Part shown: positions 7,228-22,767 of the stretch, in pieces
Layout: every line of letters starts with the position of its first letter
Position numbering within the stretch: position 1 is the first letter of the stretch
Assembly (NCBI RefSeq): GCF_036634175.1
Contig: NZ_JAZIFX010000001.1
Location: forward strand, 5,766,001-5,830,000
From: Streptomyces sp. P9-A2
Lineage (GTDB): Bacteria; Actinomycetota; Actinomycetes; Streptomycetales; Streptomycetaceae
Length of the DNA: 64,000 nt
Direction: 5' to 3'
Made by a program: the position numbers and the translations under genes
Notes under the pieces: model-generated
The model's database searches: none
What the model was told of the DNA's origin: nothing
The model's input: the letters and a program-made list of their open reading frames with translations, nothing else

Positions 7228-7269
7228 ATGCGCACCCGAATTCTCGTACTTGGAAAGCGCGTCGGCTGA
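7228..7269 (+). CDS. ilvB operon leader peptide (MRTRILVLGKRVG)
   Basis: A 13-codon open frame preceded by a strong GGGGGAGGG (7210-7218). It encodes MRTRILVLGKRVG, with four consecutive branched-chain codons ATT CTC GTA CTT (Ile-Leu-Val-Leu), three of them rare in this GC-rich genome. It precedes a stack of hairpins and a rho-independent terminator before ilvB. This is the classical layout of transcription attenuation: ribosome stalling at Ile/Leu/Val codons when those amino acids are scarce would alter RNA folding and permit read-through into ilvBNC. Leader peptides of this type are known before actinobacterial ilvB. Confidence 0.88.
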   Translation: MRTRILVLGKRVG

Positions 7270-7309
7270 CGTTGAGCACTGCCTGCTCAACGCCCCCGCC
7301 CGACGCGCT
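7256..7309 (+). promoter_or_regulatory. ilvB attenuator pause/antiterminator stems
   Basis: A perfect 10-bp outer stem (AGCGCGTCGG at 7256-7265 with CCGACGCGCT at 7300-7309) begins inside the last leader codons and encloses a perfect 8-bp hairpin (GTTGAGCA 7271-7278 / TGCTCAAC 7284-7291). It ends directly against the terminator stem. A ribosome on the leader would disrupt the outer stem. The 5' terminator arm CTCCCC could alternatively pair with the leader ribosome binding site GGGGAG; that is inference. Confidence 0.75.
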
Positions 7310-7343
7310 CCCCTCGCTTGCCTCATGGCACGAGGGGTTTTTT
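7310..7343 (+). terminator. ilvB attenuator terminator
   Basis: Stem CCCCTCG (7310-7316) pairs with CGAGGGG (7331-7337), followed by TTTTTT (7338-7343). It is a textbook intrinsic terminator about 80 bp before the ilvB start codon, the output stage of the attenuator. Confidence 0.88.
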
Positions 7344-19577: not shown

Positions 19578-20666
19578 ATGACCACGCCCACGATCGAGCT
19601 CAAGCCCTCCGCCCACCCGCTCTCCGACGCCGAGCGCGAGGCGATCCTGGCCGACCCGGGGTTCGGCCGCCACTTCACCGACCACATGGTGACGGTCAAG
19701 TGGACCGAGGGCCGGGGCTGGCACGACGGACAGCTCGTCCCGTACGCGCCGATCCCCCTCGACCCGGCGACCCACGTCCTGCACTACGCACAGGAGATCT
19801 TCGAGGGCCTGAAGGCCTACCGCAGGCCCGACGGGTCCGTCGCCACCTTCCGCCCGGAGAAGAACGCCGAGCGGTTCCAGCGCTCCGCCCGCCGCCTCGC
19901 GATGCCCGAGCTACCGGTGGAGACGTTCCTCGCGGCGTGCGACGCCCTGGTCGGGCAGGACAAGGCCTGGGTTCCGGCGCACGGTGGCGAGGAATCCCTC
20001 TACCTGCGCCCGTTCATGATCGCGACCGAGGTCGGCCTGGGTGTGAAGCCCGCCAACGAGTACCTGTTCCTGGTGATCGCCTCCCCGGCCGGCGCCTACT
20101 TCCCCGGCGGTGTGAAGCCGGTCTCCATCTGGGTCTCCGAGGACCGCGTCCGAGCCGTCCCCGGCGGCATGGGCGACGCCAAGACGGGCGGCAACTACGC
20201 GGCCTCCCTGCTGGCCCAGGCCGAGGCCGCCGCCAAGGGCTGCGACCAGGTCTGCTACCTCGACGCCGTGGAGCACACCTGGGTCGAGGAACTCGGCGGC
20301 ATGAACCTGTACTTCGTCTACGGGGACAAGATCGTCACCCCGGCCCTCACCGGATCCATCCTGGAGGGCGTCACCCGTGACTCCCTGCTGAGCGTCGCCC
20401 GCGACCTCGGCTACGAGGCCGTCGAGGAGCGGGTCTCGGTCGAGCAGTGGCAGCGCGACACCGAGAACGGCACCCTTACCGAGGTCTTCGCCTGCGGCAC
20501 CGCGGCCGTCATCACGCCCGTCGGCACCGTCAAGCGGGCCGGCGGCGAGTGGCAGCAGAGCGGTGGCGAGCCCGGCGAGGTCACCCGGCGCCTGCGCCGG
20601 GCCCTGCTCGACATCCAGCGCGGCACGGCCGAGGACAAGCACGGCTGGATGCACCCGCTGGGCTGA
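19578..20666 (+). CDS. ilvE: Branched-chain amino acid aminotransferase
   Basis: A 362-residue PLP enzyme (fold type IV) for the last step of Ile/Leu/Val synthesis and first step of their breakdown. It has [18 protein letters not shown] near the N-terminus, the PLP-lysine in [28 protein letters not shown], and [14 protein letters not shown] for phosphate binding. The length fits the eukaryote/actinobacterial BCAT-II group. ATG 19578 has GTGAAGGAC upstream. Single gene between leuB and the cimA leader region. Confidence 0.95.
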
Positions 20667-20905
20667 GCGCCCGGTCCCGACGGCGACGTGCACGGCCCCT
20701 CGCGGACGCCCGCGGGGGGCTTGCGCGTCCGTGCGCCCCTTCCTGGTCGCTTCCGGTCGGGTTTCCTGGTTTGCCGTGGGCCGGGCTGCCTGGTCGCCCG
20801 CGGTCGCGCCCGCCGCCCGGTCGCCTGCGGCCCCGACCCCCAGGTTGCCGCGGGACGGACACCCGACGCCCGCATCCTGAGACAGGCGGTGATCGCGGGA
20901 CCGCT
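20667..20905 (+). other. ilvE-cimA gap, upstream part
   Basis: No gene is seen. A weak hairpin (GGACGC / GCGTCC around 20704-20734) may end ilvE transcription. The sequence is Gly/Pro/Arg-codon-like low complexity. The functional cimA leader starts at about 20912. Confidence 0.4.
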
Positions 20906-20911
20906 TTGTGC

Positions 20912-20917
20912 CAGACT
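20912..20917 (+). promoter_or_regulatory. Candidate -10 box of the cimA leader transcript
   Basis: CAGACT (consensus TANNNT with C at the first position) lies six bases before the leader-peptide GTG. Transcription would then start at or next to that GTG, giving a leaderless leader peptide, which fits the lack of any Shine-Dalgarno. A weak -35 (GGTGAT, 20888-20893) is 18 bp upstream. Confidence 0.35.
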
Positions 20918-20923
20918 GCGCCC

Positions 20924-20974
20924 GTGCTCTCGTTCGCCACGATTATTGGCAGCAGGCGCGCCGGTCCGCAGTGA
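20924..20974 (+). CDS. cimA leader peptide with tandem Ile codons
   Basis: A 16-codon frame, GTG to TGA, reading MLSFATIIGSRRAGPQ. Codons 7-8 are ATT ATT, isoleucine codons that are rare in this genome, and codon 2 is Leu. It ends 53 bases before an intrinsic terminator that precedes cimA, whose pathway makes 2-oxobutyrate for isoleucine. The arrangement (short frame with end-product codons, a structured spacer, a U-tailed hairpin, then the biosynthetic gene) is that of an attenuator. Translation is probably leaderless because no ribosome binding site is present. This is inferred from sequence only. Confidence 0.7.
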   Translation: MLSFATIIGSRRAGPQ

Positions 20975-21002
20975 CCGCACGTACGACAACGTACGGGCGG
21001 AC
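20964..21002 (+). promoter_or_regulatory. cimA leader hairpin overlapping the leader-peptide stop
   Basis: GTCCGC (20964-20969, inside the last leader codons) pairs with GCGGAC (20997-21002), enclosing an inner GTACG/CGTAC hairpin with an ACAA loop (around 20981-20994). The layout parallels the ilvB attenuator, where an outer stem also starts in the leader's final codons. A ribosome stalled at the Ile codons would leave this stem intact; one at the stop codon would break it. Which alternative pairing competes with the terminator is not resolved. Confidence 0.55.
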
Positions 21003-21027
21003 ACCGTCGTCCTCGACCCGCGCGCAG

Positions 21028-21053
21028 ACCTCTCGCACCCGCGAGAGGTTTTT
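21028..21053 (+). terminator. cimA attenuator terminator
   Basis: A perfect 9-bp stem, ACCTCTCGC (21028-21036) with GCGAGAGGT (21041-21049), an ACCC loop and a TTTTT run. It lies 110 bp upstream of the cimA start with no gene between ilvE and it except the leader peptide, so its job is most simply attenuation. Confidence 0.85.
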
Positions 21054-21162
21054 CTGTTTCCTGGCCCACCTCAAGCCGGGGACCGGGCGCGAGGGACCAT
21101 GGGGGGACGGTGGAACCGGTCATTCCGGTAGACCGAGATCCAACATCAGGAGCCTTCAGACC

Positions 21163-22767
21163 ATGACCGCAACCAGCGAGCCCGACGACTCGTTCCACGT
21201 CTTCGACACCACCCTGCGCGACGGCGCCCAGCGTGAGGGCATCAACCTCACCGTCGCCGACAAGCTGGCCATCGCACGGCACCTGGACGACTTCGGCGTG
21301 GGCTTCATCGAAGGCGGCTGGCCCGGTGCGAACCCGCGGGACACCGAGTTCTTCGCCCGCGCCCAGCAGGAGATCGACTTCCACCACGCCCAGCTGGTCG
21401 CCTTCGGCGCCACCCGCCGCGCGGGCACGACCGCGGAGAAGGACCCGCAGGTCAGGGGGCTCCTCGCCTCCGGCGCTCAGGTCATCACCCTGGTCGCCAA
21501 GTCCCACGACCGCCATGTCGAGCTCGCCCTGCGCACCACCCTGGACGAGAACCTGGCGATGGTCCGCGACACCGTGTCCTTCCTCAAGGCCGAGGGCCGC
21601 CGGGTCTTCGTCGACTGCGAGCACTTCTTCGACGGCTACCGCGCCAACCCCGAGTACGCCAAGTCCGTCGTCCGCGCCGCCCGGGAGGCCGGCGCCGACG
21701 TCGTCGTCCTGTGCGACACCAACGGCGGCATGCTCCCCGCCCAGATCCAGGCCGTGGTCTCCACGGTGCTCGCCGACACCGGCGCCCGGCTCGGCATCCA
21801 CGCCCAGGACGACACAGGGTGCGCGGTCGCCAACACCCTCGCCGCCGTCGACGCGGGCGCCACCCACGTGCAGTGCACGGCCAACGGCTACGGCGAGCGC
21901 GTCGGCAACGCCAACCTGTTCCCGGTGGTGGCGGCGCTGGAGCTCAAGTACGCCAAGAAGGTGCTGCCCGAGGGCCGGCTGCGGGACATGACGCGCGTCT
22001 CGCACGCCATCGCCGAAGTGGTCAACCTGACCCCCTCCACCCACCAGCCCTACGTCGGCGTCTCCGCCTTCGCCCACAAGGCCGGCCTGCACGCCTCCGC
22101 CATCAAGGTCGACCCCGACCTGTACCAGCACATCGACCCCGAGCAGGTCGGCAACACCATGCGGATGCTGGTGTCCGACATGGCAGGCCGCGCCTCCATC
22201 GAACTCAAGGGCAAGGAACTCGGCATCGACCTCGGCGACGACCGCGAACTGGTCGGCCGGGTCGTGGAGCGGGTCAAGGAACGCGAGCTCAAGGGCTACA
22301 CGTACGAGGCCGCCGACGCGAGCTTCGAACTCCTGCTGCGCGCGGAGACCGAGGGCAAGCCGCTGAAGTACTTCGACGTCGAGTCCTGGCGCGCGATCGT
22401 CGAGGACCGCCCCGACGGCACCCACGCCAACGAGGCCACGGTCAAGCTCTGGGCCAAGGGCGAGCGGATCGTCGCCACGGCCGAGGGCAACGGCCCGGTC
22501 AACGCCCTGGACCGGTCCCTGCGCGTCGCCCTGGAGCGGATCTACCCGCAGCTCGCCAAGCTGGAGCTCGTCGACTACAAGGTCCGCATCCTCGAGGGCA
22601 AGCACGGCACGCAGTCCACCACCCGGGTCCTGATCTCCACGTCCGACGGCACGGGGGAGTGGTCGACGGTGGGCGTCGCGGACAACGTCATCGCCGCGTC
22701 CTGGCAGGCCCTGGAGGACGCGTACACGTACGGGCTGCTGCGGGCCGGGGTCGACCCGGCGGCCTGA
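21163..22767 (+). CDS. cimA: (R)-citramalate synthase
   Basis: A 534-residue member of the LeuA/HMGL family that condenses acetyl-CoA and pyruvate to citramalate, a threonine-independent route to 2-oxobutyrate and isoleucine. N-terminal catalytic barrel: DTTLRDGAQREGINLTVADK, GGWPGANPRDTEFF, IHAQDDTGCAVANTLAAVDA with metal-binding His, and the Gly-rich NGYGERVGNANLF. C-terminal regulatory domain (residues ~395-530) of the LeuA dimer type. The DTTLRDGAQREGI wording distinguishes the CimA group from LeuA1. ATG 21163 with AGGAG ten bases upstream. Homologues are sometimes annotated alpha-isopropylmalate synthase 2, but the attenuator's Ile codons support the citramalate role. Confidence 0.9.
   Translation: MTATSEPDDSFHVFDTTLRDGAQREGINLTVADKLAIARHLDDFGVGFIEGGWPGANPRDTEFFARAQQEIDFHHAQLVAFGATRRAGTTAEKDPQVRGLLASGAQVITLVAKSHDRHVELALRTTLDENLAMVRDTVSFLKAEGRRVFVDCEHFFDGYRANPEYAKSVVRAAREAGADVVVLCDTNGGMLPAQIQAVVSTVLADTGARLGIHAQDDTGCAVANTLAAVDAGATHVQCTANGYGERVGNANLFPVVAALELKYAKKVLPEGRLRDMTRVSHAIAEVVNLTPSTHQPYVGVSAFAHKAGLHASAIKVDPDLYQHIDPEQVGNTMRMLVSDMAGRASIELKGKELGIDLGDDRELVGRVVERVKERELKGYTYEAADASFELLLRAETEGKPLKYFDVESWRAIVEDRPDGTHANEATVKLWAKGERIVATAEGNGPVNALDRSLRVALERIYPQLAKLELVDYKVRILEGKHGTQSTTRVLISTSDGTGEWSTVGVADNVIAASWQALEDAYTYGLLRAGVDPAA

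Follow-up and report, generated by a model that had tools for sequence, protein, structure and literature searches.

The window, a stretch of 64,000 nucleotides from Streptomyces sp. P9-A2, carries a compact candidate regulatory element in the gap between ilvE (19578-20666), the upstream neighbour, and cimA (21163-22767, + strand), the gene presumably controlled. The product of cimA is a citramalate synthase, as an earlier note made from the sequence had it, scoring 635 bits against TIGR00977 (cut-off 450). The features of the element lie on the + strand and are given in window coordinates. An extended -10 element, TGcCAGACT (20909-20917, with the TG at 20909-20910 and CAGACT at 20912-20917), is recognised from its sequence and from a layout shared across the class, and promoter spacing places the predicted, leaderless transcription start at the G of a GTG codon at 20924. 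The earlier note had drawn attention to CAGACT six bases before this GTG; it is indeed there, with the TG in addition, and the leaderless-type spacing holds. The GTG opens a leader peptide frame of 16 codons, VLSFATIIGSRRAGPQ (20924-20974, stop codon TGA at 20972-20974), in which two tandem isoleucine codons, ATT ATT (20942-20947), conserved in Streptomyces and class-wide, are the putative control codons. Frame and codons agree base by base with the first description, which had also called ATT rare in this DNA: six coding sequences of the window use ATC 135 times and ATT twice.

Fourteen nucleotides past the first Ile codon begins a hairpin, P1, which spans 20956-21025 in the minimum-energy fold. 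Its 5' arm, GCGCGC C GGTC (20956-20966), pairs with the 3' arm, GACC C GCGCGC (21015-21025), a pairing that is backed by covariation. The inner part of P1 (20967-21014) is, in the same fold, a variable stem, on the 5' side of which, and thus within the 5' arm of the hairpin as a whole, the leader stop codon is found. A hairpin overlapping this stop had been proposed before; it is real and longer than first described. The 3' arm of P1 directly abuts an intrinsic terminator, T (21026-21051), apparent from the fold and from covariation, with the loop ACCC and a U-tract at 21049-21053. Its stem amounts to 9 bp, or to 11 bp with the inclusion of two pairs formed with the U-tract, and the distance from the U-tract to the cimA start is 110 bp, in keeping with the earlier reading. 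Further upstream, the motif TGAGAC (20878-20883), about -46 to -41 from the predicted transcription start, may be a regulator or promoter site, given its conservation in Streptomyces. With Rfam 15, zero matches up to an E value of 5 were obtained in 20667-21162, the gap thus showing no T-box or other Rfam riboswitch, and at gathering scores the whole window yielded tRNAs only. Elsewhere in this genome, a threonine dehydratase is found (G000:C1:5137425-5138555, TIGR01127 434.7 bits, cut-off 378.75), so that both routes to 2-oxobutanoate seem to be present.

The element is nearly universal in the genus. A 149-base query matches 244 of 246 Streptomyces genomes; the two genomes without a match (G081 and G178) were again negative in a second search and have no CimA over the family cut-off. 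At all 154 loci L001-L154, CimA lies downstream and T at most 400 nt before it. With regard to the leader, the comparison across many Streptomyces that the earlier note had called for turned out strongly positive, for both the conservation of the Ile codons and the covariation of P1 and T, and the leader is kept as a frame with Ile codons, the peptide end not being conserved. Among 132 distinct cimA leaders, the first Ile position is ATT in 131, and the second control codon is ATT in 93, ATC in 24 and ATG in 15. The tandem is therefore present in most Streptomyces leaders, but it is not strictly required, since 15 of the 132 read ATT ATG and one reads GTG ATT. The distance from the first Ile codon to the start of P1 is 14 nt in 107 of these leaders and 13 nt in 25. 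Leaders with the shorter distance lack one base, so that beyond the Ile codons they are read in another frame and reach a shifted stop; the RNA arm is nonetheless the same, which argues that selection is acting on the Ile codons and the RNA and not on the end of the peptide. In this genome the element is single, both with the genus-wide query and in the class-wide covariance-model search; the pattern CGCAGACCTC proved useless for finding copies, with 44 matches in the genome as against 52 for its backward control.

The upstream motif shows a comparable constancy. In the form [TC]GAGA[CT], it occurs in 179 of 186 distinct Streptomyces stretches, in 139 of them at one identical distance, against a mean of 6.9 and a maximum of 13 in shuffled stretches. 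Second copies of the element also carry TGAGA[CT], about 46 bases ahead of the leader start and in some of them within a palindrome such as CCGCATTGTGAGATGCGG, and the motif has no resemblance to the NdgR motif given in the accessible part of PMC4340878.

These second copies are found elsewhere in some Streptomyces genomes, and 13 were examined (L195-L207). They carry Ile frames such as MQRHPIISGSVPTRS, except for L203, which is devoid of Ile codons, and the same T as in the cimA leader, and their P1 arms read GCGTGC/GCACGC or GCGTGT/ACACGC, the outermost pairs being GCGT/ACGC and not GCGC. Behind nine of the 13 lies a small protein that is ACT-like by eye; behind L198 and L199 lies a stand-alone C-terminal LeuA_dimer domain of CimA, which in L198 was confirmed by PF08502 (1e-16) and by 48% identity over 124 residues of CimA; and no gene was seen near the element in L201 and L206. 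Past the LeuA_dimer domain, the L198 protein has a stretch that resembles, by eye, the small ACT-like proteins. For one small downstream protein, the source annotation of the homologues reads ACT domain-containing or hypothetical; a Pfam scan of two small downstream proteins gave no match, and a third reached 19.7 bits with ACT_4, below the cut-off of 27. This third one is the small ACT-like protein behind a second copy in another family (L280). The presence of paralogous leaders before ACT-like and LeuA_dimer proteins suggests that cimA was duplicated together with its leader and that only the regulatory domain was retained.

Beyond the genus, a covariance model built from 31 sequences, and searched with strict filters that lose weak matches, matches 169 of 394 genomes of the class, including 40 Streptomyces genomes, and 70 of its 137 genera. 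A comparison of two tables by hand gives a match in 162 of 310 genomes with cimA and in 7 of 84 without. Out of 59 loci outside the genus, 55 lie before cimA (tblastn) and one more before a truncated cimA recognised by eye; the remaining ones comprise two before ilvB and one before a small ACT-like protein. When 20 cimA upstream regions were taken from genomes without a model match, 10 still had a frame with an Ile run together with a terminator, the sequence of which differed in several of them, and in the other 10 (L298-L304, L308-L310) no such leader was seen; cimA is therefore not always equipped in this way. P1 could be called in nine of the 10 leaders missed by the model, with a gap between P1 and T of 0-1 nt in eight and of 3 nt in one. 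Many loci have a leader, such as MSFWMIII or VLSTSIIIN, that stops immediately at P1.

For the analysis of P1 and T, a script was run on 100 sequences, namely the 59 class loci, the 10 loci without a model match and 31 Streptomyces representatives, and it found T in 98. Two sequences without a called T and one without a called P1 were excluded, and seven more, in which the script had picked another helix, were removed by eye (C_L240, C_L247, C_L279, C_L272, C_L286, S_L202_0 and S_L204_0), leaving a final class-wide set of 90. At least two consecutive Ile codons are present in 79 of the 90. The leader Ile runs of the class loci use ATT 63 times and ATC 52 times, and the cimA genes behind those leaders use ATT 33, ATC 847 and ATA 10 times. 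An extended -10 element precedes an in-frame start in 70 of the 90 sequences, at a distance of 6 nt in 47, 7 nt in 12 and 8 nt in seven (66 at 6-8 nt); in 50 shuffles of the upstream stretches, the same layout occurred 0.84 times on average and at most three times.

The two spacers that flank P1 are close to constant. The P1-T linker measures 0 nt in 80 of the 90 sequences, 1 nt in nine and 3 nt in one, so that 89 fall at 0-1 nt (before the removal of rows, 97 sequences gave 82 at 0 nt, nine at 1 nt, three at 2 nt and three at 3 nt), and for the best helix upstream of T the distance from its end to T is 0 in 77 and 1 in nine of the 90. On the other side, of the 79 sequences with an Ile run, 78 have a P1 that starts 10-15 nt past the first Ile codon, and among these 79 the leader stop codon lies 1-4 nt before P1 in 37 and inside P1 in 42. 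With a ribosome of ordinary dimensions, P1 stays whole while the ribosome waits at the first Ile codon, and its 5' arm is covered once the ribosome stands at the stop codon. Judged by this geometry, P1 would persist when the ribosome stalls and be disturbed when it reaches the stop.

The pairing of both hairpins is strongly supported by covariation. Among 21 pairs of outer P1 and T, six changed on both sides in 31 sequences and 13 in the alignment A3, which holds 44 of the 59 class loci. The covariation score was reached by 0 of 500 shuffles in either alignment and collapses when the pairing partner is slid by 1-3 columns. Further standard pair types were no more numerous than in the shuffles for the 31 sequences, where 490 of 500 shuffles were as high, but exceeded them for the 44 loci, where 16 of 500 were. 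The interior of P1, which could not be reliably aligned in A1 or A3, was left out of these pair counts; compensatory changes such as ACCGCC/GGGCGG and ACCACC/GGGTGG can be seen there by eye. The outermost four P1 pairs, GCGC/GCGC (A3 columns 20-23 with 55-59), are invariant in all 44 class loci. This GCGC clamp is present in 84 of the 90 sequences, and all six exceptions are second copies in Streptomyces; the covariance model is itself built on GCGC, but GCGC also occurs in the nine called loci that escaped the model. The constancy of the clamp is not explained by pairing alone.

Since the Ile codons, the promoter spacing, P1 and T are all conserved, with strong covariation, an Ile-responsive attenuator before cimA is well supported and, as far as genome comparison goes, very probably what these leaders are. 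Overall, the best explanation, and a probable one, is that the element would act as a leader-peptide transcription attenuator that ties the expression of cimA to charged tRNA-Ile. Against Ile sensing, a single Ile codon is found in the 15 Streptomyces leaders with ATG in second place, and a run of two is absent from 11 of the 90 class-wide sequences. Transcription would start on the leader start codon or immediately beside it, as predicted from promoter spacing, so that the ribosome begins on a leaderless message, and RNA polymerase would make P1 and then T. When Ile-tRNA is plentiful, the ribosome would pass the Ile codons and reach the stop, where it would mask the 5' arm of P1 or open it; T could then be completed and transcription would end. 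When Ile-tRNA is short, the ribosome would wait at the Ile codons just before P1, which would remain intact. Because no free RNA separates P1 from T, a formed P1 could not follow the T base into the RNA exit channel; T could then not finish, and the polymerase would read on into cimA. We infer these ribosome, polymerase and termination events, above all the steric block, from the anatomy of the element. That the intact P1 is the switch by sterically blocking T, a physical argument, is put forward tentatively, as a plausible reading that falls short of a probable one. It would explain why both spacers are nearly constant while the interior of P1 is free to vary.

Folding does not by itself provide a switch. 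P1 and T are compatible on paper, both forming in 89 of the 90 minimum-energy folds, and RNA thermodynamics alone therefore gives no choice between two states. With regard to pairing partners, the 5' arm of T finds none in the upstream RNA at the 5% level of shuffles in any of the 90 sequences, the sort of partner that a trp-type 2:3 antiterminator supplies. In the window, the share of shuffles that pair as strongly with this arm is 0.579 for cimA and 0.705 for ilvB, and it is 0.896 for the leuS leader. The same calculation on E. coli K-12 controls, for which the terminator arms and the upstream limits were set manually, gave 0.035 for trp, 0.0 for thr and 0.039 for leu, those of trp and leu being only modestly significant; E. 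coli was used because the stretch fetched upstream of trpE in this genome held no triple-Trp leader and offered no within-genome classical control. The anatomy, conservation, covariation and geometry of the element, together with the lack of a base-paired antiterminator beyond chance, can thus be read from the aligned letters. A pairing of CTCTCG at the leader start with the 3' arm of T was also considered and was rejected, as by eye it is not kept in divergent Streptomyces or in the second copies.

A base-pair exchange might nevertheless have escaped these tests, in the form of a short boundary swap or a pseudoknot between P1 and T, as proposed for the ilvBNC operon of Corynebacterium glutamicum, which has its leader in the same position and belongs to the same amino-acid branch; in the excerpts of PMC11857589, the two hairpins adjoin at their bases, with GCC common to both. 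The 3' arm of T pairs with the leader frame at the 5% level in nine of 90 sequences, about twice the number expected by chance, which would fit such an exchange, whereas the other comparisons speak against it: that arm reaches the 5% level with P1 in six of 90 and with the P1 loop side in four of 87, and the 5' arm does so with P1 in none of 90, with the loop side in one of 87 and with the leader frame in two of 90. The few-base overlap of the C. glutamicum type was likewise not seen, in that neither P1 into T nor T into P1 can be extended by at least two pairs in any of the 90 (an overlap of one pair is possible in four), and in the same excerpts most of the effect of mutations tracks the stability of the terminator. 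We regard such a hidden exchange as rather unlikely. Unlikely, too, is a stalled ribosome that itself blocks T, P1 looping out so that the ribosome is brought next to RNA polymerase and no room is left for T. The conservation of the spacers from the Ile codons to P1 and from P1 to T, with a P1 interior that varies in length and sequence, is what this explanation would require, but the steric action of P1 predicts conserved spacers equally.

Two further explanations question the direction or the existence of the response. T is strong (mean -17.7 kcal/mol over the 90 sequences), and constant termination is possible, in which case the leader frame would have no Ile-dependent role; it would also agree with the accessible part of PMC1262725, according to which regulation was unaffected when the candidate codons in the ilvB leader of S. 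coelicolor were replaced. Such a constant terminator is nonetheless improbable in view of the conservation across many families of the Ile codons, of their distance to P1 and of the pairing of P1, when the peptide end is not conserved, and of the Mycobacterium tuberculosis ilvB1 leader, in which the change of LVVI to AAAA abolished induction (excerpts of PMC13236596). The reverse logic, by which an intact P1 would help T and a shortage of Ile would lower cimA, is in line with the co-folding of P1 and T in nearly all sequences, but it would be unexpected for a biosynthetic gene and contrary to the ilvB precedents as presented in the excerpts of PMC13236596 and PMC11857589, and we consider it most improbable. 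The steric action of P1 is kept here as the preferred reading, with the reserve already expressed.

If the element works as proposed, it is likely to be a gene-level feedback gauge for the citramalate, threonine-independent branch of Ile synthesis across many actinobacterial families, and it poses the mechanistic question of how an attenuator may switch without an antiterminator strand. Related leaders precede stand-alone regulatory-domain proteins. Furthermore, branched-chain precursors also feed polyketide starter units, and the cimA switch may therefore matter for production strains.

No description of a cimA attenuator was found in searches of an open-access library, and the main texts of four published papers on Streptomyces transcript ends held no passage on a cimA leader for the terms searched. 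SCO5529 is, we assume, the cimA gene of S. coelicolor. In the accessible part of PMC13033682, SCO5529 is lowered in the strain studied. Eight leaders of S. lividans, ilvL among them and none for cimA, are tabulated in the part of PMC8079986 available, and the corresponding part of PMC1262725 reports T-boxes at ileS and candidate structures for genes of three amino acids, Trp, Cys and Leu, with ilvB counted under Leu, and nothing for other pathways.

Among classical systems, the trp, thr and leu attenuators of E. coli resemble the cimA element in having a leader peptide, control codons and a U-tailed terminator; in contrast, their T 5' arm has an upstream partner, which the cimA element lacks, both in the window and class-wide. 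The nearest architecture is that of C. glutamicum ilvBNC, with adjacent hairpins that share three bases (excerpts of PMC11857589). This system and the Corynebacterium ilvB-II motif (excerpts of PMC10272879) have in common with cimA a leader frame with branched-chain codons and a hairpin, proposed there as the antiterminator, beside or across the terminator. According to the same excerpts of PMC10272879, the Corynebacterium ilvB antiterminator is placed on one strand of the lower stem of T. In the Corynebacterium ilvB systems, as far as these excerpts go, antiterminator and terminator thus share bases, whereas none of the 90 sequences analysed here allows an overlap of at least two pairs. For M. 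tuberculosis ilvB1, codon-dependent attenuation has been shown, and the model in the available part of PMC13236596 is similar to the one proposed for cimA, in that the antiterminator is free when the ribosome stalls and masked when it sits at the stop. The gene is another one, however, with LVVI codons and hairpins described as mutually exclusive.

Two known leaders of this genome have the same tandem layout. The Streptomyces ilvB leader (ilvL, MRTRILVLGKRVG; PMC8079986 Table 4 and PMC1262725, both seen in excerpt) lies in the window at 7228-7340. Like the cimA element, it has a short frame with branched-chain codons, GCGCG P1 arms and a T directly after P1; unlike it, it has Ile, Leu and Val codons and a different T sequence, and it controls acetolactate synthase. 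The Streptomyces leuS leader (L325 in this genome), which the excerpt of PMC1262725 files as a classical attenuator with an antiterminator, differs from the cimA element in its Leu codons and its sequences, as far as the accessible parts of PMC8079986 and PMC1262725 describe it. In both own-genome leaders, P1 touches T and the T 5' arm has no partner. We would advance with some doubt, as a possibility, a general actinobacterial design common to cimA, ilvB and leuS, in which antitermination would occur without base-pair competition, through a hairpin that is spared by the stalled ribosome and that touches and sterically stops T. Such a switch would be on by default if the leader were untranslated, the opposite of trp super-attenuation, and the near-constant GCGC clamp would be its sequence-specific part in the cimA and ilvB leaders.
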